Part shown: positions 6,463 to 23,026 of the stretch, in pieces
Layout: each line of letters opens with the position of its first letter
How positions within the stretch are numbered: the stretch's first letter is position 1
Assembly (NCBI GenBank): GCA_003017855.1
Contig: PYER01000018.1
Span: 1 to 46,659, forward strand
Direction: 5' to 3'
Source of the DNA: a filamentous cyanobacterium CCT1
GTDB taxonomy: Bacteria > Cyanobacteriota > Cyanobacteriia > Phormidesmidales > Phormidesmidaceae
DNA: 46,659 bases
Notes under the pieces: model-generated
What the model was told of the DNA's origin: nothing
The model's input: the letters and a program-made list of their open reading frames with translations, nothing else
The model's database searches: none
Translations under genes and position numbers: made by a program

Positions 6463-6751
6463 AGGTTGAGTGCCTGGTGGGTTGGTGCTAGCTCAATGTC
6501 GGTAGCACCTGTGCAAGACAACGTTATCTTGTTAAAAAGTCCATGGCTTCTGTCTAAATGGATAAATTGCCGGGGTTTATAAAAGATGAGTTGTTAATAA
6601 TCAGTGGACAACAGCAGAAGGTGCTGTTTTGCCTCAATAAAAGTAAATGTGTGTTTCTATCCTAGGATAGATCTCGCATTCTGCAAAACGGCAGACTATT
6701 CGGTCATGGCCACAAAGCACCATTGCGACTAAAAACTGCGATCAAGACTTG

Positions 6752-6756
6752 AAGGA
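6752..6756 (+). promoter_or_regulatory. Shine-Dalgarno AAGGA deciding the kinase start
   Basis: The frame is open from a TTG at 6749, but AAGGA at 6752-6756 lies four bases before an in-frame ATG at 6761, which is therefore the better start. Confidence 0.6.
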
Positions 6757-6760
6757 TGGT

Positions 6761-9700: not shown

Positions 9701-10093
9701 GTGTTTTCGGTCGATGACTCGGCCGATACGCGCGAGTTTTTGACGGTGCTGCTGGGGCAGTACGGGGCTGAGGTGGTCACGGTGGGCTCGGCCACCGAAG
9801 CGCTGGAGACGCTCAAGACCTGGCGGCCCGATGTGCTGATCAGCGATATCGGCATGCCCGACATCGACGGCTACAGCCTGATCCAACAGATTCGGGCGCT
9901 GCCCTGCGACCAGGGCGGCAAGATTCCGGCGTTCAGCGAAGCTGTGCTTCCAGCGATCGCGCTCACTGCCTACGCCCGCTATGAAGACCAGCAGCAGTCG
10001 CTGGCCAGTGGCTACCAGCGCCACCTGAGCAAACCCCTCGATCCCGAAAAGCTGGTGAAGGCGGTGCTGGAACTGACGCGGGGGCGATCGTAG
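6761..10093 (+). CDS. Multi-PAS hybrid histidine kinase
   Basis: This 1110-residue sensor kinase has no clear membrane segment and is probably cytoplasmic. In order: a PAS-like N-terminal domain of the type that opens with LGAAAGWPAAMKTTLG (to about residue 150), a variable linker, four PAS/PAC units (about 195-325, 330-440, 450-570, 580-700), HisKA with phospho-acceptor H744 in SHELRSPLNP, HATPase_c (N box NLLSNAVKF, G boxes DTGIGIS and GGLGLGLAIV) and a C-terminal receiver with D1029 in SDIGMPDIDGY. There is no output domain, so the phosphate must move on to another protein. The receiver has an eight-residue insertion encoded at 9932-9955. The gene converges on a paralogous kinase only 42 bp away. 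Confidence 0.93.
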   Translation: MTPQGVTQAVFIGQNPVAALMRSRDWSQTSLGAAAGWPAAMKTTLGILLSAETPMGCVWGQDRRVFYNEACAALLPSGATTGQPLPEAEGWAEIGTTVEQVFATGRSQSLTAAQDAPANGRPLIADHSWACSAVWTETGQVGGVLAIAMPRPKDPVSTDIRPREPVASFSPKGAEAGDVGANDEAAGQGSAALRESEERFRHLADNISQLAWMADARGSVFWYNQRWFDFTGTTLEQMQGWGWRQVHHPNHVDRVVEKVSHCFATGDVWEDTFPLRGKDGQYRWFLSRATPLRDEQGRVLRWVGTNTDITELRRTEKALEQTTKRLNIALKSVPITLFSQDSQLRYTWVYNPTHSYTPDQMIGRRDDDLVPADAADRLRRLKQQVLDTGEGLRAEVEVGQAIFDLTIDPIRDRGDRIVGLTGAAVDISERARLEAQQKQTEATLLKSGEQLRLAQRAAGAGLWDWDMVTNQVTWSEEYYHLYGIDFGVMPSYENWLAQILPIDRARVDQETQQAIEQGKNLKVNFRIDYPDEGQRWIMVRGKTFYDANHRPIRMTGIAINITEQKRFEQALIDSEAIARTQAEELAALMETAPAAIWIAHDANCNQITANRMAHELMRTEPGSLATATLPLGAGTLPFKQCRQGQEVPPQDLPMQKAIRTGQEVTDQIEFVYADGTVRSIYGKAVPLFDSAGVARGAIGGVTEITALKQSEREREQLLQRERVAREEAEQANRLKDQFLAVLSHELRSPLNPILGWSKLLQTRSFDSEKTKRALATIERNAQLQAQLVDDLLDLARILRGKLHLTPMAINLAGVVESALETVKTAAAAKSIALQLDLDRTVRVAGDAARLQQIVGNLLSNAVKFTADGGQITVVMRSLHDQAEISVQDTGIGISPDFLPHLFESFRQEDISITRKHGGLGLGLAIVRQLVEIHSGTITAHSPGEGQGATFSVRLPQLAAEVADDSAAALSQPALDLSGIRVFSVDDSADTREFLTVLLGQYGAEVVTVGSATEALETLKTWRPDVLISDIGMPDIDGYSLIQQIRALPCDQGGKIPAFSEAVLPAIALTAYARYEDQQQSLASGYQRHLSKPLDPEKLVKAVLELTRGRS
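9932..9955 (+). repeat. 24-bp in-frame insertion in the kinase receiver domain
   Basis: The paralogous kinase at 10136-12799 reads GGKIPA directly followed by IALTAYA. Here eight residues (FSEAVLPA) stand between these two blocks. The inserted 24 bases contain TTCAGCGAAGCTGTGCTTCC, a hairpin-forming sequence of the style of cyanobacterial short dispersed repeats, and keep the reading frame. It falls just before the fourth beta strand of the receiver. Confidence 0.6.
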
Positions 10094-10135: not shown

Positions 10136-12799
10136 CTAGCCCTGGGGTTTGCTGCCGTCGAGCAGTTCGACCAGAGCACGGCTCAAACCTTCTAAATCTA
10201 CGGGCTTGGTCAAATGGCGCTGAAACCCTGCGGCCAGGGCGCGATCGCGGTTTTGCTCCCCGGCATAGGCGGTCAGGGCGATCGCCGGAATCTTGCCGCC
10301 CTCGGCCTCGGGCCGCTGCCTGAGCGCGCGAATCAGCATAAAGCCGTCCTGGTCGGGCATGCCAATGTCGCTGATTAGCACGTCGGGATGGTGCTGGGTG
10401 ACCAGCTGTAGCCCGGCCTCGGCGGAGCAGGCCGTCAGCACCTCCATGGCGTAGTCTTCGAGCAGCGCCGTCAGCAGATGCAGCGAATCCAAGTCGTCAT
10501 CAATCACCAAAACCCGTCGTCCGGCCAGGCTGGGCTGGTTCTGAGCGGCGGTTGGGGCCGGCAGGGGCGTCGCGCCGTCGTGCTGGGGCAGCCGCACCGT
10601 AAAGGTGGCTCCCTGCCCCTCGCCGGGGCTGGTCACCGACACCTGGCCGCCGTGCTGCTCGCTCAGGTAGCGCACGATCGCCAGGCCCAGACCCAGGCCG
10701 CCAAAGGCGCGGGTGCTGCTGCTGTCGGCCTGGCGAAACTGCTCAAACACGTGGGGCAAAAAATCGGCGCTGATGCCCTGGCCCGTATCCTGCACCTCAA
10801 TTATGGCGTAGGGGCCATCTTGGCTAAGCCTGACGGTCACCTCGCCCCCCTCGGGGGTGAACTTAATTGCGTTGGAGAGCAGGTTCCACACGATCTGCTG
10901 CAGGCGGTTGACATCTCCCGAAATGGGTTCTACTGCCTGATCAAGGTTGGTGCGCAGGGCGATGGCTTTGGCCTGGGCCGACAGCTGCACCGTTTCCAGG
11001 GCGGCGCCGATCACGCTGGCCAAATTGACGGTGTGAATGTCCAGCGTCAGCTTGCCCCGCAAAATGCGCGATACATCCAGCAGGTCTTCGATCAGCTCGG
11101 CCTGAATTTTGGCGTTGCGCTCGATGGTCTCGAGGGCGCGAGCCTGGGTGGCGGCGTCTAGGGAGCGCGATCGCAGCAGCGACACCCAGCCCAGAACCGG
11201 GTTCAGCGGCGTGCGCAGCTCGTGGGAGAGCATGGCCAAAAACTCGTCTTTGATGCGGTTGGCGGCCTCGGCCTCGGTACGGGCCACGCGCTCCTGGGCC
11301 AGGGCGCGATCGCGTTCCACCAGCGCCAGCTTCTGGTCGTGAATATCCGTCGATGAGCCAAACCAGCGCAGCACTTCGCCCCCCTCCCCCTGCAGCGGAA
11401 ACACCCGCACCAGGTGCCAGCGGTACTGGCCATCCACTCGCAGCGGTCTGGCCTCTAGCGCCAGCGGCTGCCCCGTCTGTAGCGCCTCTGTCCAGGCGGC
11501 TTGACAGCGCTTTTGGTCATCGGGGTGCAGCACTGCGATCCAGCCCTGGTCAAAACTCTGGGCCGGGGTTAGCCCCGTGTAGTTGTACCAGCGCTGGTTG
11601 CAGTACTCTAGCTGGCCACCGGGTCGAGCCGTCCAAAACATTTGCGGCATCGAGTTGGCCAGGGTGCGAAAGTGCAGCTCGCTCTTGCGCAGGGCCGCCT
11701 CGGTCTGCTTTTGCTCGGTGATGTCGTAGTTAATTTCGAGAATGGCATTGGGTTGACCCACCGGGGTCTGCTGCAGAGTCCAGCGGCTGCTCATCATCAC
11801 CGTGCGGCCGCTGCGGGTGGTTTGAACCAGCTCTCCTACCCAGTGCCCCTCCTGCAAAATGGCGGCTCGAATAGCGTCTATCGGCTCTGGCAAGACGGTT
11901 TTTAGCAGTGCCGCTGCCGACTGCCCGATCGCCTCCGCCGCCGACCAGCCGTAGCAGCGCGCCGCTCCCTGGTTCCAGTAGGTAATGATGGCGCTGTCCA
12001 GCTCTCGAATCATGATGCTGTCGTTGGCCAGATCCAGCATTTGCATCTGCTGCCGGAGCTGCTGTTCATCCTGACGGCGATCGGTCAGGTCGCGAAAGTA
12101 AACCGCCAGCCCGTTGACCAGCGGGTTCATGTGCATCTCAAACAGGCGATCGGGGTGAACTACGCCTGGGGCCTCGACTACTAGCGATCGCCGCGTGGTC
12201 ATTACCTGCTGAAAGGCCTGGGCTATGGTGGTGCCCTCCAGGTCGGGCAGCACCTCCCAGATAGAGTGGCCCAGCAAATCGTCGAGAGGGCGCTTCAGCA
12301 GACGCAGCGCCTGGGGATTGACGTAGACAAACCGCCACTGCATGTCGAGCGCATAAAACCCTTCGGTAATGCTCTCTAGAATGGCCGTGATCCACTGGTT
12401 GGTGTGACCTAGCGACGCTTCGCTCGCCTTGAGCTTGAGAGAGCTGCGCTCCAGGTGCTGTCGAGCCCTGCGCAGCGAGCCACAGATAGCGCTGACGGCC
12501 GTGCCCTGAACGCCAAATACAACGAGGCGAACGATGGCCTCAGCGCTGAGGCTGAAGGTGTACTGGGGCAGCATAAAGACATAGTTGCTGACTACCGCCG
12601 CCAGCACCGTAGTCAAGAGTCCGCAACCTATTCCACCCCACCAGGCAGCAGCCACCACGGCCCCAAAAAACAGCAAAAACGGGGTAACGGCCATATTGGC
12701 AATGGGGTTGAGTGCCCACATCAGCAGCAGAGCTAGCCCTACGCTGAGAAATGCTATGCCATACGCCCTGGGCTGTAGATAACACAGATGTAGCTTCAT
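10136..12799 (-). CDS. Membrane-bound DUF4118/PAS hybrid histidine kinase
   Basis: This 887-residue kinase begins with a four-helix membrane block (about residues 12-110, ending before GSLRRARQHLE) of the DUF4118 type also found in KdpD. Three PAS/PAC units follow (about 135-245, 255-370, 375-490; the third reads FRTLANSMPQMFWTARPGG), then HisKA with H526 in SHELRTPLNP, HATPase_c (NLLSNAIKF, DTGQGIS, GGLGLGLAIV) and a receiver with D811 in SDIGMPDQDGF. The core is closely similar to the neighbouring kinase at 6761, suggesting duplication, while the sensor half differs. The signal is unknown; the membrane block suggests something sensed at or in the membrane. No dedicated output gene is adjacent. 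Confidence 0.93.
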   Translation of the reverse strand: MKLHLCYLQPRAYGIAFLSVGLALLLMWALNPIANMAVTPFLLFFGAVVAAAWWGGIGCGLLTTVLAAVVSNYVFMLPQYTFSLSAEAIVRLVVFGVQGTAVSAICGSLRRARQHLERSSLKLKASEASLGHTNQWITAILESITEGFYALDMQWRFVYVNPQALRLLKRPLDDLLGHSIWEVLPDLEGTTIAQAFQQVMTTRRSLVVEAPGVVHPDRLFEMHMNPLVNGLAVYFRDLTDRRQDEQQLRQQMQMLDLANDSIMIRELDSAIITYWNQGAARCYGWSAAEAIGQSAAALLKTVLPEPIDAIRAAILQEGHWVGELVQTTRSGRTVMMSSRWTLQQTPVGQPNAILEINYDITEQKQTEAALRKSELHFRTLANSMPQMFWTARPGGQLEYCNQRWYNYTGLTPAQSFDQGWIAVLHPDDQKRCQAAWTEALQTGQPLALEARPLRVDGQYRWHLVRVFPLQGEGGEVLRWFGSSTDIHDQKLALVERDRALAQERVARTEAEAANRIKDEFLAMLSHELRTPLNPVLGWVSLLRSRSLDAATQARALETIERNAKIQAELIEDLLDVSRILRGKLTLDIHTVNLASVIGAALETVQLSAQAKAIALRTNLDQAVEPISGDVNRLQQIVWNLLSNAIKFTPEGGEVTVRLSQDGPYAIIEVQDTGQGISADFLPHVFEQFRQADSSSTRAFGGLGLGLAIVRYLSEQHGGQVSVTSPGEGQGATFTVRLPQHDGATPLPAPTAAQNQPSLAGRRVLVIDDDLDSLHLLTALLEDYAMEVLTACSAEAGLQLVTQHHPDVLISDIGMPDQDGFMLIRALRQRPEAEGGKIPAIALTAYAGEQNRDRALAAGFQRHLTKPVDLEGLSRALVELLDGSKPQG

Positions 12800-13318: not shown

Positions 13319-14179
13319 ATGACCATTACCCCCGATCAAATTCCGGCTCAAACCCAAAAGCGCACCCCTGCCCTGGAGTCGGAAATGGTGCCCAGACCAC
13401 AGTACGATGACCCTGAGTACAAAGGCAGTGGCAAGCTTCAGGATAAAGTGGCCTTGATTACTGGCGGCGACAGTGGTATCGGTCGTTCTGTGGCGGTTTA
13501 CTACGCCAAAGAGGGGGCCGATGTAGCCATTGTTTATCTCGACGAGCACGAAGACGCCCAAGAAACTCAGCGGGCGGTTGAGGACTACGGACGACGCTGC
13601 TTGCTGATTCCAGGTGATATTCGCAACGAGCAGTTTTGCCACGAGGCCGTGCAAAAAGCGGTAAAAGAGTTTGGCAAACTCGATATCTTGGTGAACAACG
13701 CGGCCGTTCAGTATCAGGAGCCTAGCCTGGAAGAAATCGACGCGGCTCGATTGGGCGATGTGTTTGCCACCAATATCTTTTCAATGTTTTACTTTGCCAA
13801 GGCCGCGACGCCCCACATGCAGCCGGGCAGTTCCATCATCAACACCACGTCGATCAATGCCTACAAAGGTAACGCTAGCCTGTTGAGCTACTCCACCACA
13901 AAGGGGGCTATTTTGGCCTTTACCCGCTCCCTCGCTGGCCCCATGCTGGAGAAAGGCATTCGCGTCAATGGCGTTGCCCCTGGCCCGATTTGGACGCCCT
14001 TTATCCCCGACGCCTTTGAGGGTGATGATGTGTCAAATTTTGGCAAGCAGGTGCCAATGCAGCGCCCCGGCCAGCCCAAGGAAGTCGCGCCCAGCTTTGT
14101 CTTTTTAGCCTCTGAGGATGCGTCGTACATGGCAGGACAAGTGCTGCACCCCAACGGCGGCGTAGTGGTTGGCGGCTAG
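13319..14179 (+). CDS. SDR-family oxidoreductase, general-stress type
   Basis: This is a classical short-chain dehydrogenase of 286 residues, NAD(P)-dependent. It has a 40-residue N-terminal extension that includes PRPQYDDPEYKGSGKLQDK, as in the Bacillus YhdF/E. coli YghA group, then the cofactor loop TGGDSGIG, the NNAAVQY segment and the catalytic Ser...Tyr-x-x-x-Lys in TTSINAYKG...SYSTTKGA. After the active site come the PGPIWTPFIP and PNGG motifs. Members of this subgroup are often stress-induced, with poorly defined alcohol or aldehyde substrates. A GGAGA Shine-Dalgarno precedes the ATG. It appears monocistronic. Confidence 0.92.
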   Translation: MTITPDQIPAQTQKRTPALESEMVPRPQYDDPEYKGSGKLQDKVALITGGDSGIGRSVAVYYAKEGADVAIVYLDEHEDAQETQRAVEDYGRRCLLIPGDIRNEQFCHEAVQKAVKEFGKLDILVNNAAVQYQEPSLEEIDAARLGDVFATNIFSMFYFAKAATPHMQPGSSIINTTSINAYKGNASLLSYSTTKGAILAFTRSLAGPMLEKGIRVNGVAPGPIWTPFIPDAFEGDDVSNFGKQVPMQRPGQPKEVAPSFVFLASEDASYMAGQVLHPNGGVVVGG

Positions 14180-14475
14180 TCTCACGAAAGTGTGGCCTAG
14201 ACGGTGTGTTCCAGGGACCTACCCAGGGGCACACCTGCAGGCTCGTTTCTGGTCACAATAAGTCTGGTTAGTATAGGGCCGATATACCTGGGCGGCAGTT
14301 GCCCGCAGAAGGGCTAATTCAATCGCAGCTATAGCCATTGACACAGTGGTTAGGATGTTTGCATAGGCAATTTGCAGGCGACGGCTATGCACCAGTCCGC
14401 TACTTTGGCTTTGGCTATTAGTGGGAGTACTGTCTTAAGCAAATTGGCCAGCGCGATACTTACTAACTTCAAACT
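14180..14475. other. Intergenic region with a possible P450 promoter
   Basis: About 300 bp without a gene. A TTGACA hexamer at 14338-14343 is followed after 17-18 bp by GCATAG/CATAGG, a weak -10 match, about 110 bp before the P450 start. No gene or repeat is evident. Confidence 0.25.
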
Positions 14476-15741
14476 ATGGCTAATATTCCCGCTGAACCGG
14501 TAATCGACAGTACGTTGGGTCTGCTGTTTGATGGCTACGAATTCATTTCTAAACGCTGCGATCGCCTGCAAACCGATATTTTTCAGACCCGCTTGAGGCT
14601 CGAAAAAACCATCTGCATGCGGGGCAAAGCGGCCGCCGAGGTGTTCTATGACACCGATAAATTTTCTCGGAAAGATGCTGCCCCCAAGCGCATGCAGAAA
14701 ACCCTGCTGGGTGAAGGCGGCGTGCAGGGGCTAGACGGCGAGGCCCACCGCCAGCGCAAGCAGATTTTTATGGGGTTGATGACCCCCGAACGGCTACAGC
14801 AGATCGGCGATCTGGTGCTGCACCACTGCCGCGAGTACGCCCAGCAGTGGGAGCGGCAAAACCAGGTCGTATTGTTTGATCAGATCAACGAAATTCTCTG
14901 TCGGGCCGTCTGCACCTGGTCGGGGGTGCCGCTGGCCGAAGGTGAAGTGGCCCAGCGCACCCTGGAACTGGCGGCTCTGATCGACAGCGCTGCTGCCCTA
15001 GGGTTCAGGCACGTGCAGGGGGTGCAGGCCCGTAAGCGACTTGAGGCCTGGCTGGCAGACCTGATTGAAGACATTCGCGCTGGACGGCTTCAGGTGCCTG
15101 AGCATACGGCCGCCGCAGCCTTTGCCCACAGCCAGGATGCCAACGGCAATCGACTAAGCCCTGCCATTGCGGCCGTAGATTTGCTCAACGTGCTGCGGCC
15201 GACCGTTGCCATTGGTCGTTACATTGTGTTTGCGGCGTTGGCCCTGCACCAGCATCCCGACTGTCGCCAAAAGCTCCAGTCCAACCCGGCTGACTACACC
15301 CTCCTTTTCACCCAGGAAGTACGGCGGTTTTATCCCTTCTTTCCCTTTGCGGCCGCCCGCACTCGACAGGCGTTTGACTGGCAAGACTACCGCTTTTCTG
15401 AATCGACGCTGGTGCTGCTCGATCTCTATGGCACCAACCATGACTCTAATCTATGGGAAAAGCCCGAGGAATTCTGGCCTGAGCGGTTTATGCACTGGGA
15501 CGGCAGTGCTTTTGACTTTATTCCTCAAGGGGGCGGTGACCACTACAAAAACCATCGCTGCGCCGGAGAATGGCTGACGATTGAAGTCATGAATCGGGTG
15601 CTGGGCTTTTTGGCCAATGAGCTTGAGTACGATGTGCCGCCCCAAGACCTGCAGATCAAACTGACGCGTATGCCAACTCTGCCGGAGAGCAAGTTTGTAA
15701 TTAGCAACGTCAGGCTCAGACCGCAGGATAAGCCTTTGTGA
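14476..15741 (+). CDS. Cytochrome P450, CYP152-type fatty acid peroxygenase
   Basis: CYP152 enzymes use H2O2 directly to hydroxylate (or decarboxylate) fatty acids near the carboxyl group and need no reductase. The 421-residue length and motifs fit: VQGLDGEAHRQRKQIFMGLM at 83-102, the Arg-Pro pair R241-P242 in LRPTVAIGRY that replaces the usual acid-alcohol pair and binds the carboxylate, ExxR at E281/R284, and the heme ligand C362 in PQGGGDHYKNHRCAGE. Q84 lies where, from memory, the Bacillus hydroxylase has Gln and the alkene-forming OleT has His. This predicts alpha/beta-hydroxylation rather than 1-alkene formation. There is no strong Shine-Dalgarno before the ATG. No ferredoxin or reductase gene is nearby, as expected. 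Confidence 0.92.
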   Translation: MANIPAEPVIDSTLGLLFDGYEFISKRCDRLQTDIFQTRLRLEKTICMRGKAAAEVFYDTDKFSRKDAAPKRMQKTLLGEGGVQGLDGEAHRQRKQIFMGLMTPERLQQIGDLVLHHCREYAQQWERQNQVVLFDQINEILCRAVCTWSGVPLAEGEVAQRTLELAALIDSAAALGFRHVQGVQARKRLEAWLADLIEDIRAGRLQVPEHTAAAAFAHSQDANGNRLSPAIAAVDLLNVLRPTVAIGRYIVFAALALHQHPDCRQKLQSNPADYTLLFTQEVRRFYPFFPFAAARTRQAFDWQDYRFSESTLVLLDLYGTNHDSNLWEKPEEFWPERFMHWDGSAFDFIPQGGGDHYKNHRCAGEWLTIEVMNRVLGFLANELEYDVPPQDLQIKLTRMPTLPESKFVISNVRLRPQDKPL

Positions 15742-15804
15742 CCCTTGATCGATGCTGTAGCGATCGCCATTCGAGCGAGGACGTAACCTCATCGGGATGC
15801 TTGG

Positions 15805-16244
15805 ATGGGCGATCGCAAGCCAGCGATTCTCTTAGCCCAAGCTCAAATACTTGAGCCTGAACTAAACTAGCTGGCCGACGCCCTGTAAACCCAGAGCATT
15901 CGAGAGTTTGATCTAAAGCACGACACAAAAAGACTCGCGCGCGAGGTCCTGAGTCTCGGTATTGAAGCTCCGATACTCGGTGTTGAGGCTCTGAGTCTCG
16001 GTCTTAAGGTAAACTAACTCGCGCGTGAGTCAGCCGATCCTTGGGCGCGAAGCGTTTAGGCTGAAGCGTACGTCTCATTGGCTCGTCGCTGAACTAAAGA
16101 GACTCACCAATGAGGCAACTAAACTTCAAGGCTGAGCCAAATAGGCTGGTGCGTGAGTCGCGATCGCTCACGGCTGAGATAAATACCCTCGGGCATGAGT
16201 CGCGATCGCTCACGCCCAAGATGCAACAACTTGCGCTTAAGTAG
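15805..16244 (+). pseudogene. Decayed coiled-coil gene with 14-residue repeats
   Basis: Translation in the frame of the ATG at 15805 gives MGDRKPAILLAQAQILEPEL, a stop, then after a second stop the segment FDLKHDTKRLAREVLSLG and EAPILGVEALSLGLKVN, ended by TAA at 16015. The +1 frame then reads AELKRLTNEATKLQ (from 16088) and the +2 frame reads NRLVRESRSLTAEIN and LGHESRSLTPKMQQLALK to TAG at 16242. Leu/Ile residues recur every seven positions, and ESRSLT recurs exactly 14 residues apart, encoded by TGAGTCGCGATCGCTCACG at 16154 and 16196 (42 bp). At least two frameshifts and several stops separate the pieces. It looks like the remains of a heptad-repeat protein; no intact relative is in the window. 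Confidence 0.45.
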
Positions 16245-16276
16245 GTTCGGGTCGAGCACGAGACTATTTTCTGCAG

Positions 16277-16407
16277 TTGACTGACAAAACATTAGGGGTA
16301 GGTTGGGTGAAACGCGTGAAACCCAACAGCAGTCGACCTTTTTGGGTTCTGCTAACGCGCCACCCAACCTACGCAGTGGTAAGCATCTCACAGATTTTGT
16401 CAGTCAA
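16277..16407. mobile_element. 131-bp MITE-like nested palindrome
   Basis: The outer 13-bp inverted repeats are perfect: TTGACTGACAAAA (16277-16289) and TTTTGTCAGTCAA (16395-16407). Inside is a second perfect 12-bp pair, GTAGGTTGGGTG (16298-16309) and CACCCAACCTAC (16361-16372), around a further imperfect hairpin. The GTAGGTTGGGTG/ACCCAACCTAC motif recurs in many cyanobacterial genomes. It encodes no protein, so if mobile it is non-autonomous. It lies 45 bp beyond the methyltransferase stop and may also act as a 3' end structure. Confidence 0.6.
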
Positions 16408-16452
16408 TCAGTACTTCTCTCTAAACGTCAGAGATAACGTCAGGGATCATTA

Positions 16453-17196
16453 CTAAAGTGCTGTCATCACTTTCAAAAACTCCTCTGACAAACAGGCTGT
16501 TGAAGCACTCTTTTTCCGAAAGAGTACCCCGGCCAAAAAGTAGATTCTCTCCGAAAAGAAGGCTTGACGCTTGCACTTGAGCTTTGCGATCGAGTCTCTG
16601 ACCTTGGGTTCACAGCTGTAATAGCCAAACTTGAGCGGAGTGACCATAAAATCAACCAACTCATAGCCAAGCTTGAGTGCGTGGTTGACCGTATCGACAG
16701 GGTTTGAGTAGGCTGAAATCATCAGCATGACTTGCTCACAGCCCTGGGCGATCAGCTGTTTTGTAATGGTTGCCCCATCGCTGCCGCCGTGCAGAGACGG
16801 CATGTAGAGCTGATTGTCAGGGGCGGGCAGGTAGGGAGGGTTGGCGATCAGGCAGCGCGCCTCTGCTGGAGAGCCCTCAAAAAAGCAGTCGTTGTAAACT
16901 TGGTAATACGGCGTTAGCCCATACTGTTCGATTCTGAGCTTTGCCAGTTGATAAGCCGCTAAGTTTAATTCATAGCCCTGGATCGTTCCCTGAAACGGAC
17001 TTCTCAACAGCGCCTGAATGACCGGGCTCCCATCCCCAGATCCAAACTCAACAATGGGGCTTTCTGAGGTGCCCTGGGACAGCACCATCTTCTCTAAACA
17101 CTGGGCATAAAACTGTGACTCTTCAGGGCAGAAGAAAACTTGATTGGGAGATTTGGCCTCAACCGCAGTGTCAGAGACCAGCAAACTTTTGTTCAT
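16453..17196 (-). CDS. NPPY-type SAM-dependent methyltransferase
   Basis: A 247-residue class I methyltransferase. Motif I is VEFGSGDGS at residues 49-57, the acidic end of strand 2 is in GYELNLAA (E76), and motif IV is N119-P-P-Y122 followed by a PrmC-like HGGSDGATITKQLI. NPPY in this family acts on planar nitrogens (glutamine amide, adenine or cytosine amino, and some small molecules). The protein lacks the extra N-terminal domain of PrmC and the target-recognition domains of DNA methylases, so a small-molecule or free amino acid substrate is plausible. It is the second gene of an operon: its ATG is 38 bp after the stop of the diiron oxidase gene. Confidence 0.85.
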   Translation of the reverse strand: MNKSLLVSDTAVEAKSPNQVFFCPEESQFYAQCLEKMVLSQGTSESPIVEFGSGDGSPVIQALLRSPFQGTIQGYELNLAAYQLAKLRIEQYGLTPYYQVYNDCFFEGSPAEARCLIANPPYLPAPDNQLYMPSLHGGSDGATITKQLIAQGCEQVMLMISAYSNPVDTVNHALKLGYELVDFMVTPLKFGYYSCEPKVRDSIAKLKCKRQAFFSERIYFLAGVLFRKKSASTACLSEEFLKVMTAL

Positions 17197-17234
17197 GGCA
17201 AGGGTTCGGTAGGTAGGTTAAAAAAGGCTGACAA

Positions 17235-18362
17235 TCAGGCCAAATAAATATTGGGCAGAGAAGTAGGCGCTTGCTGAATGTGCCGAATGATGGCTTGACC
17301 GGCCCGTTCCCCAATAAATTTTTCCTGGGTATACCCCAGCAAAATTTCCCAGGCTTGATCAGGGTATTGCTCCGCCAGCGGCAGGGCTACATCCTCTAGC
17401 ATCCACAGGCCGTGGCGTTCATCTTCTCGGATGTGCAATTCCCAATACCCTGACGATTCTTCGCTCAAATTTAAGCGCTGTGCTGCCATCAAATAGTCGG
17501 TATAGATAGAGGGACCAACGATTTCAAAATAGGTCAGCCCGCCGTTGTAGCGCAGAAAATGCTGCTTGCACTCGGTCAGCAAAAAGTTGTGATTAATGCT
17601 GGCCAACAGCTGCCAGGGGGCCAGATCAAGATATCCTTCTGGGGTCGTGTCGAGGTGCATCTCAGCCATCATTTTGGCGAAAAAGGTAGAGTGTTTGCGG
17701 GCCAGGCGGCCGTTGCCGTACTCTTCCATCAGCACACGAATCAGCATGGCCTGTACTTCGTTGCTGGCGCCACCCAAAATGCGCGACATGCGGCTGGCTT
17801 CTACTAAACCGTCTAGCGATGTAATAGCCAGCAGCCGTCGGTAGCCTTCGCGATCGAGGTCTTCGCGCAAAAAACGTCTATTTTCAGTGATGGGTGGGTT
17901 TAGATCGGCCTCATACCAGTCTCGTAGAGTTTTTTGGACATCCTGCTGTTTCAAAGAGTCAACGTCCATCTGCTCTAGCTCCCAGGCTTGCCAGGCAGAT
18001 TCAATGCGATCGCGCAGCCACTGTAGGTAGAGCGATCGCTCGTTTTTGTAGTGCTGTAGGTCGTCGTACCAAAAAAGGTTGAGGCGATTGATGCGGTAAA
18101 GAATACGCTGCAAAAACCAGTGGGCCGACTCATCCCCAGGGGCTGAGGCATCGCCGTAAGCTAAGGGCAGGGCGGCGGCGATCGCGTCTTCTAGCGCCTC
18201 AACACACTGCGGATTTTGGGTAACCTGCTGGTCAAGATTTTCAAGATTTAGCAGTTCAACAAACTCTTGCTCTAAATGGCTAAAGTCAATGCTCTTGGGT
18301 GTTGATAAATTGTGGCTTGTGGTGTTTTTCCTCAAGTCACGATTGTTGAGGGCAGCAAACAT
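17235..18362 (-). CDS. Heme-oxygenase-like diiron oxidase (iron-containing redox enzyme family)
   Basis: This 375-residue protein has a helical N-terminal region (about 1-160) and a heme-oxygenase-like diiron (HDO) domain (about 165-355). All six expected carboxylate/histidine ligands are visible: E188 in GLVEASRM, E214 in LMEEYGNG, H224 in ARKHSTFF, and H310, D314, H317 in the HxxxDxxH motif HIREDERHG. Enzymes of this fold activate O2 for N-oxygenation, desaturation or C-C cleavage (SznF, BesC, UndA). The ligand order, and as far as I remember the spacing, resemble the central domain of SznF, but no C-terminal cupin is present. It is the first gene of an operon with an NPPY methyltransferase. 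The substrate is unknown. The Shine-Dalgarno before the ATG at 18362 is weak. Confidence 0.85.
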   Translation of the reverse strand: MFAALNNRDLRKNTTSHNLSTPKSIDFSHLEQEFVELLNLENLDQQVTQNPQCVEALEDAIAAALPLAYGDASAPGDESAHWFLQRILYRINRLNLFWYDDLQHYKNERSLYLQWLRDRIESAWQAWELEQMDVDSLKQQDVQKTLRDWYEADLNPPITENRRFLREDLDREGYRRLLAITSLDGLVEASRMSRILGGASNEVQAMLIRVLMEEYGNGRLARKHSTFFAKMMAEMHLDTTPEGYLDLAPWQLLASINHNFLLTECKQHFLRYNGGLTYFEIVGPSIYTDYLMAAQRLNLSEESSGYWELHIREDERHGLWMLEDVALPLAEQYPDQAWEILLGYTQEKFIGERAGQAIIRHIQQAPTSLPNIYLA

Positions 18363-18672
18363 AAAATACCTAAGAAAAATCTTCCCGTTAATTCATTGAT
18401 GACTCATCTAGGGATCAGTCAAGCAGGCAGCCGATCAATAAATTAGGATCTATTCATTGCTTGACCAGCCTAATCACTGTAGCCAAGATTACAGAAATAG
18501 CTTATCCGCCTGTAGGCAGAATATTGAGTTAGAGTCTCAGCCTGATGGAGTTAAGTAGGCTCAGCCTGTGGCGTACTAAAATCGCAGGCCACAATCAAGG
18601 CCGATATCGTCCTATTCAGAGCAACGTTCCATGACGCTGGCGCGTCACTCCAAACGATAAAAAGACTCACAG
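18363..18672. other. Intergenic region upstream of the diiron oxidase
   Basis: This should contain the promoter of the oxidase-methyltransferase operon on the minus strand. I see no open reading frame, RNA gene or clear operator in it. Confidence 0.4.
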
Positions 18673-18702
18673 CCGTTCCCTGAGCAGAGTCGAAGGGAAC
18701 GG
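18673..18702 (-). terminator. Hairpin after alpha-amylase, GAGCAGAGTCGAAGGG-type repeat
   Basis: A perfect 9-bp stem (CCGTTCCCT / AGGGAACGG) encloses GAGCAGAGTCGA. On the minus strand it is followed by CTGTGAGTCTTTTTATCG, so it can end the amylase transcript. The sequence belongs to the common bacterial CCCTGAGCGGAGTCGAAGGG repeat type; an inverted second piece (CGACTCCGCTCAGCCC) and a small TCTCCC-TAC-GGGAGA hairpin lie just to the right, up to 18750. Confidence 0.5.
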
Positions 18703-18778
18703 GCTTTCTCCCTACGGGAGACGTTTCACGAACGACTCCGCTCAGCCCTCGGTTTTTTTAGGGCAAAAAAAGAATGGT

Positions 18779-20257
18779 TTAATGTCGAGGTATCCACACT
18801 GAGACTGAACCTTCAACACAGCAAAACTCGCCCCACCCTTCACGGTCGGTGGTTACTAAAACCTCGCTCTGCTCAGTAATGTCATAGTAAGTACGATTTC
18901 CTGGCCCTACTTTCATGTACTTACAGCTTTTGTCGCCATTAGTCATGACAACCGCCATGCCACCGGGGTGTTCGCTATCTCCCAGGCGTGTCCAACCGAT
19001 AGTGTTGGGGTGGTCAAAATAATCGTGCTGCTCGCCAAATGCGTAGGTATAGCGCACATGGAGAAAGCGATCAATTAGCCACCGGTAGCTATCAAGCCGG
19101 ATGTCACGCTCTCTGCCCTCGCGATCGACATCGGTGTAGTGGGCTCCGTAGTAGTCGGCATAAAAAATACACGGGTACCCTGCCTGACGCAGTAAAATCA
19201 GGGCATAAGCGTGAGGCTTAAACCACGGTTCAATGGTAGATTCTGATGCCTGTAGCGGTTGTGAATCGTGGTTGTCGACCATGGTAACGGCCAACTCAGG
19301 CTGTTGTTGGACCAGGGTTTGGTCGAAAATTGTGGTTAGGTCGTAGCGATCGCCGCTTCTGCTCGCCCGGCTCAGGTTATAGTGCAGCGGTATATCAAAC
19401 AGGTGAATGTGGCCGCCGGTTCTATCAATAAACTTTTGCAGCAGGTTGACGTCGCCGGACCAGTACTCGCCCATAGCAAATAGATGTTGGCCAGTTTCGT
19501 CGCGACAGTGCCGTAGAAAATCAGAGAAAAAATCGGACCTGACATGCTTAACGGCATCAAAGCGAAATCCATCAACTTGGGTGGTCTCAACGTACCAATC
19601 TCCCCACTGTTTTAGAGCCGCCCGCACCTCTTCAGACTGGGTATCTAAATCGCAACCGATTAAAAAAGCGGTGGCTCTGTCCTCAAGATCGCCGTCGTCT
19701 TGCAGAAATTTACCTTTGAACACGTAAATGGCATTCTCATCTTCGCGGTTGGCATCGTAGTCGACGGCATCGAAATGCCACCAGTGCCATTCCATCGTAG
19801 AGTATTGTCCCTGGCGGCCCGGAAACGCGAATTGTGTCCAGGCTTTAATGGTTCGGGTTTCGCCGATCGCATCTTTTTGATTTTCCCAGCTCAGGGGTGT
19901 GGCTTCGACCTCTTCAGTGGCATCGCCCCCCACCATATGATTCAAAATTACATCGGCATAGACGTTTATGCCGACCGTTTTGGCAGCCTGAATGGCGTTG
20001 AGATATTCACTTTTAGTGCCGTACTTGGTGCGAATACTACCTTTTTGATCAAACTCACCTAGATCGTATAAATCGTAGACGCCGTAGCCTGTATCAAAGC
20101 CGCCGCTGCTGCCCTTGTACGCGGGTGGTAGCCAGACGGCGGTAATGCCTACCGCCGCTAAATCATGGGCGCAATCGGCAAATTCTTTCCACAGGCTGCC
20201 ATCCGCTGGCGTGTACCAGTGAAAATATTGCATTATGACGCCATGTGGCTCTGCCAT
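18779..20257 (-). CDS. Alpha-amylase, GH13, cytoplasmic type
   Basis: This enzyme hydrolyses internal alpha-1,4 bonds of glycogen and maltodextrins. At 492 residues and without a signal peptide it fits the intracellular AmyS-like GH13 group. Conserved regions are visible: DVILNHM near 102-108 (region I), GFRFDAVKH with nucleophile D234, acid/base E264 in GEYW, and VDNHD ending at D331. The N-terminus GVIMQYFHWY and the aromatic WLPPAYKG are typical. The gene follows DUF3891 by 16 bp on the same strand, so they should be co-transcribed. With glgC and glgP in the window it belongs to glucan turnover. Confidence 0.95.
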   Translation of the reverse strand: MAEPHGVIMQYFHWYTPADGSLWKEFADCAHDLAAVGITAVWLPPAYKGSSGGFDTGYGVYDLYDLGEFDQKGSIRTKYGTKSEYLNAIQAAKTVGINVYADVILNHMVGGDATEEVEATPLSWENQKDAIGETRTIKAWTQFAFPGRQGQYSTMEWHWWHFDAVDYDANREDENAIYVFKGKFLQDDGDLEDRATAFLIGCDLDTQSEEVRAALKQWGDWYVETTQVDGFRFDAVKHVRSDFFSDFLRHCRDETGQHLFAMGEYWSGDVNLLQKFIDRTGGHIHLFDIPLHYNLSRASRSGDRYDLTTIFDQTLVQQQPELAVTMVDNHDSQPLQASESTIEPWFKPHAYALILLRQAGYPCIFYADYYGAHYTDVDREGRERDIRLDSYRWLIDRFLHVRYTYAFGEQHDYFDHPNTIGWTRLGDSEHPGGMAVVMTNGDKSCKYMKVGPGNRTYYDITEQSEVLVTTDREGWGEFCCVEGSVSVWIPRH

Positions 20258-20273
20258 AGCTGGAGTTTTATGC

Positions 20274-21008
20274 TCAGTCTGATGATTTTTTAAACGTCCA
20301 GGCCAAAGATTTGCGAGGAGCTTCTTTCAGCGCCTGAGTGAGTTCGTCGTTGGACGAAAACTGAAGCTGTGACAGATAGCAGGCGTCAACTTTGACCGTA
20401 AATTTGTCGCAGGAAAATGGCCAGGGTATGACGCTTAAATCGCCAGAATCGAGCTGGTAAACACTGTAGGACTTGCCGCTGGGGCCGTTAGTAATTTCTA
20501 GCTTGCGGCCGGCAGCTGGAATTTGGCGCTGGGAGAGAATCAGCGAGAGGCGATCGCACCACCGCATGTAGGTGTAGGCCTGTTCAGCCTCCTCTGGGCT
20601 GATCTCTAGCTCGGCCTGCCACCGGGCCTGCCGCTGCCGCTGCTCCTTAAGAAAGTTGGCCATCTCTGGGTCTTCCTCGCCCTTGCCCTGGTTCAAAAAG
20701 CACAGGTGCATCGAAATGAGCATGGCGACCCAGCGACCCTGGTAGAGGGCCTCATCGGCGTGCTGACGCAGTTTTTCAATCGGAGATTCTTTCTCTAGCC
20801 TGAAGTCTAAGGGGGCACCGGCCTCGGTGAGCTGATCGTCTTCCCACTCTTTTTCGAGGTGGTCATGGTGGGCGATCGCAGCGATAGTCTCGTAAAGACG
20901 ATAGGTCTGTTTGTCGAGGTCCCAATGGCCCGCAATTTGGGCCGCTAAAAGCGCGTGGGCGCGATGGTAGATGATTTCCCAACCATCGGTTTGAAGATTG
21001 ACGATCAT
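20274..21008 (-). CDS. DUF3891 family protein
   Basis: The 244-residue protein opens with IIYHRAHALLAAQIAGHWD, the signature I associate with DUF3891, followed by AIAHHDHLEKEWED, whose His-His-Asp-His cluster looks like an HD-type metal site. A later ISMHLCFL and MRWCDRLSLILSQ pattern also recalls HD-domain helices (H...HD...D). A metal-dependent hydrolase role is an inference only. It is the first gene of a two-gene operon with the alpha-amylase, 16 bp apart, so a part in glucan or sugar-phosphate metabolism is possible. Confidence 0.75.
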   Translation of the reverse strand: MIVNLQTDGWEIIYHRAHALLAAQIAGHWDLDKQTYRLYETIAAIAHHDHLEKEWEDDQLTEAGAPLDFRLEKESPIEKLRQHADEALYQGRWVAMLISMHLCFLNQGKGEEDPEMANFLKEQRQRQARWQAELEISPEEAEQAYTYMRWCDRLSLILSQRQIPAAGRKLEITNGPSGKSYSVYQLDSGDLSVIPWPFSCDKFTVKVDACYLSQLQFSSNDELTQALKEAPRKSLAWTFKKSSD

Positions 21009-21088
21009 AGATGTTTAGAACGGGGCAAAAGGGAGAGTTGAGTTGAAGCGAATCGCTGCGTTTGATCTAGCCTAATTTTCAGCTTAAG

Positions 21089-21127
21089 TTCCAGGCAGCA
21101 ACAACGTGGGGTTGCTCCTGCCTGGAA
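21089..21127 (-). terminator. Hairpin between lipoprotein and DUF3891 genes
   Basis: A perfect 10-bp stem (TTCCAGGCAG / CTGCCTGGAA), lengthened inside by CAAC/GTTG with a 3-nt bulge, lies 31 bp beyond the lipoprotein stop. No U-tract follows on the minus strand, so it may be a partial terminator or an mRNA-processing structure between the two genes. Confidence 0.4.
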
Positions 21128-21158
21128 TCTAAAACCTCTAATTTAGTCGCTAGCTGCT

Positions 21159-21566
21159 CTAGCTGTGGGGGAGGTCAGGGGTGTTGCGATCGACCGTATT
21201 GGCGGCGCGATCAATGGCTCCCTTGGTGTTTGCTGCGGCATTGTCAGCGGCCCGCTGGGTCGACTTGCCAATGTTTTTAGCCGCCTCTTTTACAGCGTTG
21301 TCGTCGGTGCTTTCGATGCGCTGCTCGGCCTGACGAATCATGCGATCGGCTTTGGCATCGGCGGCACTGGTGTCACGGACGGTATCCTTGTGGGGGTACA
21401 TGGTTTCGTTTTGGCCGGGGCCGGCACTGCCGACACTGTTTCTAGCGGGTGTAGACGACTGGGCGGCGCCGCAGGCGGTGGTTACCAGCACCACTAAACC
21501 GGCCAGAAAAACGATGGCCCACTGCCGCAGAGCGGTAGGATTAAAAACTCGTTTTAGGATTTGCAT
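21159..21566 (-). CDS. Lipoprotein with amphipathic Ala/Asp/Asn-rich helices (DUF6658-like)
   Basis: A 135-residue precursor. Residues 1-32 form a lipoprotein signal (hydrophobic WAIVFLAGLVVLV) with the lipobox ending at the Cys of VTTAC. The mature part carries NETMYPHKDTVRDTS, then long Ala/Asp/Lys/Asn-rich amphipathic helices (ADAKADRMIRQAEQRI, AADNAAANTKGAIDRAANTV) of the sort found in CsbD- and apolipoprotein-like stress proteins. I believe this matches cyanobacterial DUF6658, but from memory only. AAGGAG stands 6 nt before the ATG. It lies 96 bp after the hemerythrin gene on the same strand and may be co-transcribed. Confidence 0.75.
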   Translation of the reverse strand: MQILKRVFNPTALRQWAIVFLAGLVVLVTTACGAAQSSTPARNSVGSAGPGQNETMYPHKDTVRDTSAADAKADRMIRQAEQRIESTDDNAVKEAAKNIGKSTQRAADNAAANTKGAIDRAANTVDRNTPDLPHS

Positions 21567-21662
21567 GAATTGCTCCTTAAAGAACTAAATTGAAACGTCT
21601 GAAATTGACTGGGGCAAACTAGAGGCGTTTGTCCAGTCGGCAGCAGCGCCGCCAGTGTGCGA

Positions 21663-22691
21663 TTACATCTGGCTTTGCAGCTTCTGCTTGCTCTCCTTAA
21701 AGCGCATACCCATGCGCTCGCGGTCTTCCCGGGAGAGATTTTTGCGCATCGAGGCAAACATGGTGCTTTCTTCCTGGCGGGTGTGGTCGCCGACCATGGC
21801 CTTGAGCTGCTTGATTTTGTCCATGAACGCATCGCCCGTCGAGGACATAGACTTGATCTCGTTGAGCAGGTTTTCCATCTCGGCCTGCTCAGCGTAGAGT
21901 TCCTGGGTGTCGTCGTTGCCGTAGAAGGACTGAACGGCAGGGTAGACGACTTCCTCTTCGGCTTTGGAGTGCACCAAAAGGTCTTTGTAGAGCTGACCAA
22001 ACAGGGCTTTGCACTGATCAGCGTTGTCTGCGTTGCGAATTTCGCTGATCAGGGTTTTGGCCTTCTGGTGATCCATAAAGATAAAATCCAGGACATCAGC
22101 GGAGTCGCTGTCCGATGCCTGGGTGGTAGCACTGCCCACAACTCCGGTGGCGGCGGCGATCGCATCCTGCACCCGAGCCCACAGCCCCTGCTGGGGTTCC
22201 TGGCCGGTCAGCTCCAGGGTGCCGAGGTATTCGAGCATGCCCTTGAGTTGCTCCTGGTGGGCGCGATTTTCGAAGTTAACGGTGTTGAGGGGGGCGAGGG
22301 CAGCCTCTACGTCTTTGCCCACTACCTGGGCCGCTTTGTGCACCACCAGACCCGACACCACCTGGCCGTGTTTGAGCAGTTCGTGCTGGGCCATTTTGTC
22401 GTACAGGCTGAGTTCGGAGCGCGAGAAGGCATTTTTGGTCTGGTTGACCAGCTCCTGCACGGTAGATTTAGGCTCAGCCTGCACGCCGTACTGGGTGATA
22501 GCGGTTTCGACAATATCTAAATTCTTTTGATCGTCTTCCAGCATGTCTTCCAAACGCTTGCGCAGATGCTCGTCGCTGCACTGATTTAGAAACTGCTCTT
22601 CGTTGTCAATAATTACACTTTGAATGGCTTTAATGTCAGCCAGTTTTTCGGCGATCGCAGTTCGTTTTTGATCGTTTAAGGTGGCAGGCAT
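21663..22691 (-). CDS. Hemerythrin-domain protein with N-terminal helical domain
   Basis: The C-terminal half (about residues 190-330) is a hemerythrin HHE cation-binding domain: FIFMDHQKAK, DLLVHSKAEEEVVYPAV, ELYAEQAEME and MVGDHTRQEESTMF supply the His/Glu ligands of a non-heme diiron site that binds O2 or reactive species. The N-terminal half (to about 165) is another all-helical unit rich in Glu, His and Gln. Such proteins in cyanobacteria are linked with oxidative or iron stress. Start: ATG 22691 gives MPATLNDQKRTAIAEKLADI; an ATG at 22706 in the same frame would add MEPLS. Neither has a strong Shine-Dalgarno. Confidence 0.85.
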   Translation of the reverse strand: MPATLNDQKRTAIAEKLADIKAIQSVIIDNEEQFLNQCSDEHLRKRLEDMLEDDQKNLDIVETAITQYGVQAEPKSTVQELVNQTKNAFSRSELSLYDKMAQHELLKHGQVVSGLVVHKAAQVVGKDVEAALAPLNTVNFENRAHQEQLKGMLEYLGTLELTGQEPQQGLWARVQDAIAAATGVVGSATTQASDSDSADVLDFIFMDHQKAKTLISEIRNADNADQCKALFGQLYKDLLVHSKAEEEVVYPAVQSFYGNDDTQELYAEQAEMENLLNEIKSMSSTGDAFMDKIKQLKAMVGDHTRQEESTMFASMRKNLSREDRERMGMRFKESKQKLQSQM

Positions 22692-22706
22692 AGAAAGGGG
22701 CTCCAT

Positions 22707-23026
22707 TAGAATACCAACCACAGCCTAATCATTTCAAAGCAAAGCCATATCTATCATTGAGCTGAATCGTTAAGGTCGCCTGAGCGCCTATCTACTTCTC
22801 TAGAGCTAGCCTTAACGGTGGCCTAAAGCCGTCTTAATAAATGCGTAAGAATAAGCAAGTGAAAATTGGGCGTTGCTGAACCCGGCATAAATCAAAAAAT
22901 CAACGCCTCGCGTTGGAGCCAACGACCGTAAGGCCTTTAGCCTAGCTGCGTCTTCACCTTACTCAAGTTCGTGCTTCAAACCAGCAACAACCAAAGGTTT
23001 TGACTTTACTTTGGCCAGGATTTTCT
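22707..23026. other. Intergenic region, no gene
   Basis: About 320 bp. It contains an 8-bp inverted repeat CGTTAAGG (22768-22775) / CCTTAACG (22810-22817), 34 bp apart, and a TTGGGCGTTGCTGAACCCGG stretch (about 22866-22885) that looks like the edge of an insertion-sequence remnant. No coding evidence. Confidence 0.35.

Follow-up and report, generated by a model that had tools for sequence, protein, structure and literature searches.

The window analysed here is a 46,659-nucleotide contig (PYER01000018.1, assembly GCA_003017855.1) of the filamentous cyanobacterium CCT1. It carries two neighbouring genes: one for a heme-oxygenase-like diiron protein (HDO; 375 amino acids, 17235..18362), a candidate N-oxygenase by its open reading frame (ORF), its match to Pfam family PF14518, its ligands and its predicted fold, and one for an NPPY-type (MTS/HemK-class) methyltransferase (MT; 247 amino acids, 16453..17196), a candidate S-adenosylmethionine (SAM)-dependent N-methyltransferase by its ORF, motifs and predicted fold. 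As a previous, sequence-only reading of this DNA had it, both genes lie on the minus strand, and the ORF positions place MT downstream of HDO across a gap of 38 bp (17197..17234). We found that the pair occurs at different loci without a third widely conserved gene. In our judgement there is an even chance that HDO and MT make up a mobile pathway complete with these two enzymes, in which a single substrate with planar nitrogen is both methylated and N-oxygenated. We think it likely that this substrate is small and shared by the two enzymes, and probable that the HDO is an N-oxygenase.

Joint occurrence of HDO and MT in cyanobacteria

Two surveys that both included the window's genome were used, one of 386 genomes across the phylum and one of 26 genomes of the window's genus. 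(Surveyed genomes are labelled G, with G000 as the window's own, and extracted loci are labelled L.) An HDO orthologue was found in 30 of the 386 cyanobacterial genomes, belonging to 20 of 143 genera, and an MT orthologue was found in exactly the same 30; both genes are decaying fragments in one of these (G056, locus L109), and the HDO is a fragment in another (G352). MT matches in G060, G211 and G374 (27-31% identity, E about 1e-5) were left out as HemK-class background. Similarly, 12 of the 26 genomes in the genus survey contained the HDO, and the same 12 contained the MT. The hypergeometric value for identical sets is about 1e-45, a figure that ignores kinship and is not a probability. The possibility that the pair is peculiar to one genome, which the sequence-only reading had raised against itself, is refuted by this co-occurrence in both surveys.

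The 30 pairs of the phylum survey were arranged in tandem in 17 cases, convergently in 10 and divergently in none. In the remaining three the genes were not adjacent: they are truly unlinked in G308, lying 1.45 Mb apart on one contig, they lie on two contigs in G062, and their separation in G195 probably reflects a contig break. In another collection, of 25 named loci, the MT was inside the locus in 22; the MT of L001 is cut by the contig end, that of L013 is in two pieces, and in the L022 genome it lies on a contig other than that of the HDO. Among seven near relatives, the ratio of nonsynonymous to synonymous substitution rates (dN/dS) was 0.045-0.082 for HDO in all 21 pairwise comparisons and 0.017-0.094 for MT in 20 of the 21, one being not computable, with many dS values in this set near saturation. 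Purifying selection on both genes is strong, and the low dN/dS together with the spread over genera indicates that the HDO gene is not a chance occurrence. Distances for HDO and MT over 45 genomes were correlated (r 0.82, rho 0.55), the best of 2000 permutations reaching r 0.18; the orthologue trees were built without L114, a SznF-like paralogue, and without L117, a duplicate of L024.

In G062, a remnant of the HDO adjoins the MT, and an intact HDO of a different clade lies on another contig. This intact HDO groups with those of L023, L106 and L107 (support 1.000), and the MT has its closest counterparts in L008, L011 and L086 (69-71% identity). In the L022 genome, BLAST found a second-clade HDO and, on a separate contig, an MT nearest to those of L008 and G062. 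Apparently, then, a second HDO replaced the first in G062 while the MT was retained, which is what dependence of the MT on an HDO would predict.

The limits of the module were examined by clustering the neighbouring ORFs of at least 80 amino acids in 58 loci and the window (841 ORFs). The HDO family was present in 55 sources, including the paralogue L114 and three fragments, and the MT family in 49. No third widely conserved gene was found; the next two families reached 12 sources each, both from one neighbourhood shared by Fischerella, Nostoc, Desmonostoc and their kin. The same analysis spoke against a larger biosynthetic cluster, no third family being widely common. No precursor peptide was seen among the twelve most widespread of 686 small ORFs from 42 loci: these reached at most eight other loci and were all confined to the Fischerella/Nostoc/Desmonostoc neighbourhood. 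The pair is missing from the home locus in G415, where the flanking genes, which from their translations we take to encode DUF3891 and SDR proteins, are still in place. In G412 the pair is placed among different genes, presumably, again judging by translations, an endonuclease V-like gene and glycosyltransferase-like genes. Within the window, no terminator-like site was found at 16000-18900, which is compatible with co-transcription of HDO and MT. Since the two genes have been gained, moved and lost together across species, it is very probable that they make a small molecule jointly.

Properties of the diiron protein and the methyltransferase

The HDO matches PF14518 (iron-containing redox enzyme) over residues 181-343 (9.8e-26; 91.1 bits, cut-off 28.9). 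Its N-terminal helical region spans about residues 25-140, and the Pfam scan found no cupin domain in the protein, which ends at residue 375, so that an N-terminal helical extension without a cupin, as first described, is upheld. The set of six metal ligands described at the same time fared less well: all six residues are present, but the set was incomplete. Alignment with SznF and RohS gives a six-residue core of E214, H224, E280, H310, D314 and H317, from which E280 had been omitted, whereas E188 is an extra carboxylate that shares its column with SznF E189 and RohS E93. Core and extra carboxylate make up a seven-residue set of three histidines and four carboxylates (3H/4C). All seven were unchanged in 52 of 52 sequences, a count made up of the paralogue L114 and 51 orthologues, of which two or more are identical (the duplicate L117 is included). 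They were likewise unchanged in all 25 sequences of alignment A1 (the window and 24 of the 25 named loci, without L001); alignment A2 held the window and 20 of these loci (without L001, L013, L016, L021 and L022).

In SznF and RohS the extra carboxylate (E189 and E93, respectively) comes from auxiliary helix 2 (PMC11611611) and accompanies substrate-independent O2 activation (PMC11611611, PMC13108848), and these characterised examples oxygenate guanidine or amino-imidazole nitrogens (PMC10724926, PMC13108848). E188 is thus the telling residue of the set: 16 of 17 paralogous HDOs of at most 265 amino acids have Phe or another residue in its column. Paralogues for the HDO tree were collected by a PF14518 survey, positive in 25 of 117 genomes, that served only this end. 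The window's genome itself encodes a second, short PF14518 protein outside the window (open frame of 253 amino acids; G000:C99:3465-3923).

Among solved proteins, the HDO sequence matched RohS and SznF at E of 0.001 or below, RohS being the top match (1.3e-19), and the family profile also matched HrmI (9.9e-5). In the HDO tree the pair's HDOs formed a clade of their own (support 0.997), and the pieces of RohS joined locus L113 (1.000); the RohS and SznF sequences in this tree are partial, and the order of its deeper branches is not settled. One pattern-based scan confirmed no viral relatives of the HDO, PADLOC defence models matched neither HDO nor MT, and a search of plasmids at E 1e-4 gave distant matches only for HDO and none for MT.

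An AlphaFold2 model of the HDO, built from an alignment of 25 sequences, gave 12 Foldseek matches at E of 1e-3 or below, all of them to HrmI, RohS or SznF. VIA-align ranked HrmI highest (Z 20.8, root-mean-square deviation (rmsd) 4.2, 302 residues aligned), followed by SznF (Z 17.8, rmsd 3.9, 274 aligned), RohS (Z about 15.9, rmsd 4.0, 245 aligned) and FlcD (Z 14.1, rmsd 4.6, 274 aligned). BesC (Z 8.6, rmsd 4.1, 181 aligned), CADD (Z 7.6, rmsd 4.1, 174 aligned), PolF (Z 6.2, rmsd 4.3, 183 aligned) and AetD (Z 6.0, rmsd 4.4, 183 aligned) came lower, at values that may be background for helical folds, and UndA was absent among the matches listed. The N-terminal region of the model aligned with HrmI, SznF and FlcD. 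Superposition placed SznF, the counterpart first proposed, second and ahead of BesC, but the top match was HrmI. The ligand set, the sequence matches to RohS, SznF and HrmI, and the model matches together point to an HDO of N-oxygenase type.

The second gene had been credited with a SAM motif I and an NPPY motif, and both can be read in the MT, a class I methyltransferase, at E50-F-G-S-G-D-G56 and N119-P-P-Y122, along with E76. A HemK-like GG-DG segment follows NPPY, and CPEES-like and FGYYS segments are also conserved. NPPY methyltransferases are known mainly for protein and nucleic-acid targets. The MT weakly matched MTS (PF05175), PRK14968 and HemK models, and no PRMT model was matched. Its scores against six HemK- and PRK14968-type models were 12.9-24.4 bits, with cut-offs of 115.5-242; among NCBIfam models it fell below the cut-offs for PrmC (18.2 against 199.1) and hemK_fam (18.5 against 115.5). 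The L008 orthologue scored 32.1 bits against the HemK2 model, the cut-off being 87. A profile search among solved proteins found HemK closest (1.2e-4). When a model of the MT (mean predicted local distance difference test score (pLDDT) 75.8) was compared by VIA-align, N6AMT1 (15.8) and TrmM (15.5) led, with Mtq2 and many others tied (Z 15.1-15.8), whereas Foldseek ranked other small-molecule methyltransferases first. Because these top ranks differ, the fold leaves the substrate of MT unsettled.

The proposed reaction and its alternatives

In the pathway we propose, the HDO would load two irons and, by analogy with SznF, form a peroxodiiron(III/III) species without substrate. It would then N-hydroxylate or further oxidise a planar nitrogen of the guanidine, amidine, amide or amino-heterocycle type, in a substrate drawn from primary metabolism. 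Electrons would probably come from a general cellular ferredoxin, as the pair has no conserved redox partner of its own next to it. The MT would transfer the SAM methyl group to a planar nitrogen of the same molecule, so that a small metabolite, N-methylated and N-oxidised, would result. Methylation may come before N-oxidation, an order for which the szn system is the sole precedent; there SznE, an arginine-guanidino methyltransferase, acts with SznF (PMC11705231).

Several observations weigh against this proposal. The HDO model is of moderate quality (pLDDT 74.9, predicted template modelling score 0.80), with pLDDT below 50 at residues 186-189, around E188. Fold alone is no proof of N-oxygenation, because the best match, HrmI, is a 3H/3C enzyme (PMC13108848) and FlcD, which excises a methine carbon (PMC11611611), outranks BesC and those below it. 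A search of the literature found no assay of an enzyme from this HDO clade; nor did it recognise any description of the pair, in listings that were partial and with most subscription papers outside the search. The nearest solved relatives of the MT (HemK, N6AMT1 and TrmM) are protein or tRNA N-methylases, the kind of grouping that the sequence-only reading had named as telling against its idea, although every family cut-off was missed. Because the relatives of MT act on protein or tRNA, a shared small substrate is put no higher than likely. Some genomes also depart from the pairing: in G352 (L108) the MT is intact beside an HDO remnant of 143 amino acids; Calothrix rhizosoleniae (L021) has the HDO and no MT at E 1e-5, the methyltransferase adjoining its HDO being an ordinary PrmC; and the genome of Nostoc cf. 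edaphicum (L016) likewise shows no MT, but this case is undecided, as its contig stops about 90 bases past the HDO. The correlation between HDO and MT distances, moreover, is partly due to shared descent.

The kinship of the MT bears most directly on the idea that the pair modifies a macromolecule, with the HemK-class MT methylating a protein or tRNA and the HDO oxidising the same molecule. In its favour, HemK is the closest match of the MT in the profile search, N6AMT1, TrmM and Mtq2 are the closest when models are compared, and peptide-acting HDOs are known (PMC13108848, PMC13185094). We nevertheless consider this explanation unlikely: the MT scores far under the PrmC/HemK cut-offs, the patchy spread of the pair (30/386 and 12/26) fits secondary metabolism better than translation, and neither a third gene nor a small ORF is widely conserved nearby, although a target could be encoded elsewhere. 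It is likewise rather unlikely that the HDO performs other chemistry, such as desaturation, C-C cleavage or methine excision, with the MT tailoring the product. Here the ligand set, equal to that of SznF and RohS, argues for N-oxygenation, as do the lower scores of BesC, CADD, PolF and AetD (Z 6.0-8.6), even if these may be helical-fold background. To be set against this, HDOs as a class catalyse varied reactions (PMC13108848), the extra carboxylate is a sign of O2 activation without substrate and not of a reaction type (PMC11611611), and FlcD, which is no N-oxygenase, reaches Z 14.1.

A third account would have the pair make a stress protectant or serve in oxidative or desiccation stress, like DtpC, an HDO of Acinetobacter that, with KatE, supports desiccation survival (PMC13232832). 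Some carriers, to judge by their names and without a background set, may come from rock, soil, moss or lichen, and in Nodosilinea the pair has a hemerythrin-domain gene close by. This neighbour is, however, mainly a Nodosilinea feature (11 sources), and the account addresses role and not chemistry; we regard it as distinctly improbable. We hold it very improbable that HDO and MT are independent and merely hitchhike together. Joint transfer and loss is to be expected to some extent when 27 of 30 pairs are adjacent, yet both genes are kept in G308, G062 and the L022 genome despite being unlinked in the assemblies, convergent as well as tandem orders occur, and the HDO was apparently replaced beside a retained MT.

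The proposed two-enzyme pathway would matter for several reasons. Roughly 8% of the species in a broad cyanobacterial sample (30/386) carry the pair or its remains, and two small, seemingly sufficient genes make an easy target for full reconstitution in vitro. The pair could reveal a new metabolite containing an N-O or N-N bond, and it could show whether NPPY methyltransferases were recruited to small molecules.

Surroundings of the pair and related systems

Of the genes surrounding the window's pair, those for amylase, CYP152, DUF3891 and hemerythrin are local neighbours. A gene for a CYP152-family fatty-acid peroxygenase (14476-15741, plus strand; NCBIfam 602.8 bits, cut-off 600) lies near the pair in some Nodosilinea-type loci only. 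Genes for a DUF3891 protein and a hemerythrin-domain protein (20274-22721, minus strand) are found upstream of the pair in Nodosilinea-type loci. The alpha-amylase gene (18779-20257, minus strand) sits between DUF3891 and HDO in the window and in L003, is a fragment in L001, and was not found at that place in L002, L005 or L006. Farther away, the window encodes three large hybrid histidine kinases with PAS and receiver domains (6749-10093, plus; 10136-12799, minus; 28499-32569, plus), one of which also carries a GAF domain. Window positions 14000-21000 contained no riboswitch or other Rfam match at E 0.5. An Rfam scan of 11 loci gave no riboswitch and only a 6S RNA (RF00013, 109.4 bits), near the pair in Dendronalium phyllosphericum (L012, 9918-10101, plus strand).

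Two genomes with a window-type pair also contain another HDO-methyltransferase pairing. In G101, which carries the window-type pair on contig C63, locus L114 (C77, 7880-10864) encodes a PRMT-like methyltransferase, a 479-amino-acid HDO-cupin protein (Cupin_2 above cut-off) whose HDO groups with SznF in the tree, and a Rieske protein, which is a szn-type set. In G278, locus L113 (C159, 8024-14031) shares its contig with the window-type pair, which is about 55 kb away. L113 encodes a RohS-like protein in which the HDO is fused to a Rieske domain; a gene for a PRMT5-like methyltransferase is close by, with DUF6190, class V aminotransferase and DUF6014 genes as further neighbours. The family profile of MT gave no significant match to the PRMT-like methyltransferases of L113 and L114. 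On a Pantoea dispersa plasmid (L192, 1774-6954), an ada alkylation-repair gene adjoins a gene for a 465-amino-acid HDO, and the locus also holds genes for a Rieske protein, a protein annotated as an L11 methyltransferase and an MFS transporter; the ada gene could provide self-protection beside a cluster of N-nitroso type.

Actinobacterial plasmids carry a further pairing, of an HDO with a HemK2-class methyltransferase (L119, 5458-7529; L187, 3327-5187; L190, 2178-4172). As in cyanobacteria, a 3H/4C HDO, with the same seven ligand residues in four examples, stands beside an NPPY-class (HemK2/MTQ2) methyltransferase, which in 10 of the 13 plasmid records holding that HDO, two of them from one strain, is no more than about 500 bases away from it. 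A gene for a CDGSH iron-sulfur protein is present in all four annotated actinobacterial HDO loci seen, one of which is without the methyltransferase, and of the three loci named above L187 and L190 have it annotated; no such gene travels with the cyanobacterial pair. The actinobacterial HDO also belongs to another clade, with 24-29% identity to the cyanobacterial one. A single family comprising the actinobacterial and cyanobacterial methyltransferases was unsupported, the cyanobacterial profile scoring ordinary PrmC at 27.5 bits compared with 12.8, 12.6 and 2.9 for the actinobacterial enzymes. Because the cyanobacterial MT is thus no closer to the actinobacterial one than to PrmC, the two pairings look independent.

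We therefore put forward, tentatively and at somewhat less than even confidence, that the pair is a minimal, mobile pathway of two enzymes that turns a primary metabolite directly into a new kind of N-methylated, N-oxygenated small molecule. It would represent, in cyanobacteria, a design that recurs: a 3H/4C HDO coupled to a planar-nitrogen methyltransferase, put together separately in Actinobacteria (HDO with a HemK2-type enzyme, frequently accompanied by CDGSH) and in the szn lineage (HDO-cupin with a PRMT-type enzyme). Our confidence in this was lowered because 17 of the 27 plasmid records with the actinobacterial methyltransferase, mostly from Rhodococcus, lack its HDO at E 1e-10, which also counts against the pathway reading itself.

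Functions have been validated for no more than about a dozen HDOs (PMC13108848). PrmC/HemK and HemK2/N6AMT1 have NPPY, the fold and the GG-DG segment in common with the MT. They differ from it in that their family cut-offs are far missed, in its CPEES-like and FGYYS segments, and in its distribution, which is tied to the HDO. The streptozotocin enzymes SznF/StzF and SznE/StzE resemble the pair in having a 3H/4C HDO with an N-terminal helical region and a partner methyltransferase. In contrast to the HDO described here, SznF has a C-terminal cupin that rearranges the hydroxylated guanidine, its identity to our protein is 16-21%, and it falls in a separate clade; its partner is PRMT-like, whereas ours is of the NPPY/HemK class. 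A full SznF-like function was ruled out by the absent cupin and the different methyltransferase class, so that of the SznF-like N-oxygenase originally proposed, the N-oxygenase type stands, by ligands, sequence and model, and the likeness to SznF as a whole does not. RohS, the 2-aminoimidazole N-oxygenase of azomycin biosynthesis, shares the extra Glu and likewise lacks a cupin. Its alignment begins at model residue 79-81, however, leaving most of the HDO N-terminal region without a counterpart, and it belongs to a separate clade; nor does the pair have a widely conserved third gene beside it, RohP, RohQ and RohR not having been searched for genome-wide. HrmI, a lysine N-oxygenase, is the best whole-length structural match (model residues 14-365), but it is 17-19% identical and, as described in PMC13108848, has 3H/3C ligands, the set of the HrmI/BelK group, in place of 3H/4C with the extra E188. 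Thus, by the tests made, the HDO lies outside the SznF and RohS families; its nearest relative is HrmI when the whole-length predicted model is compared and RohS when sequences are.

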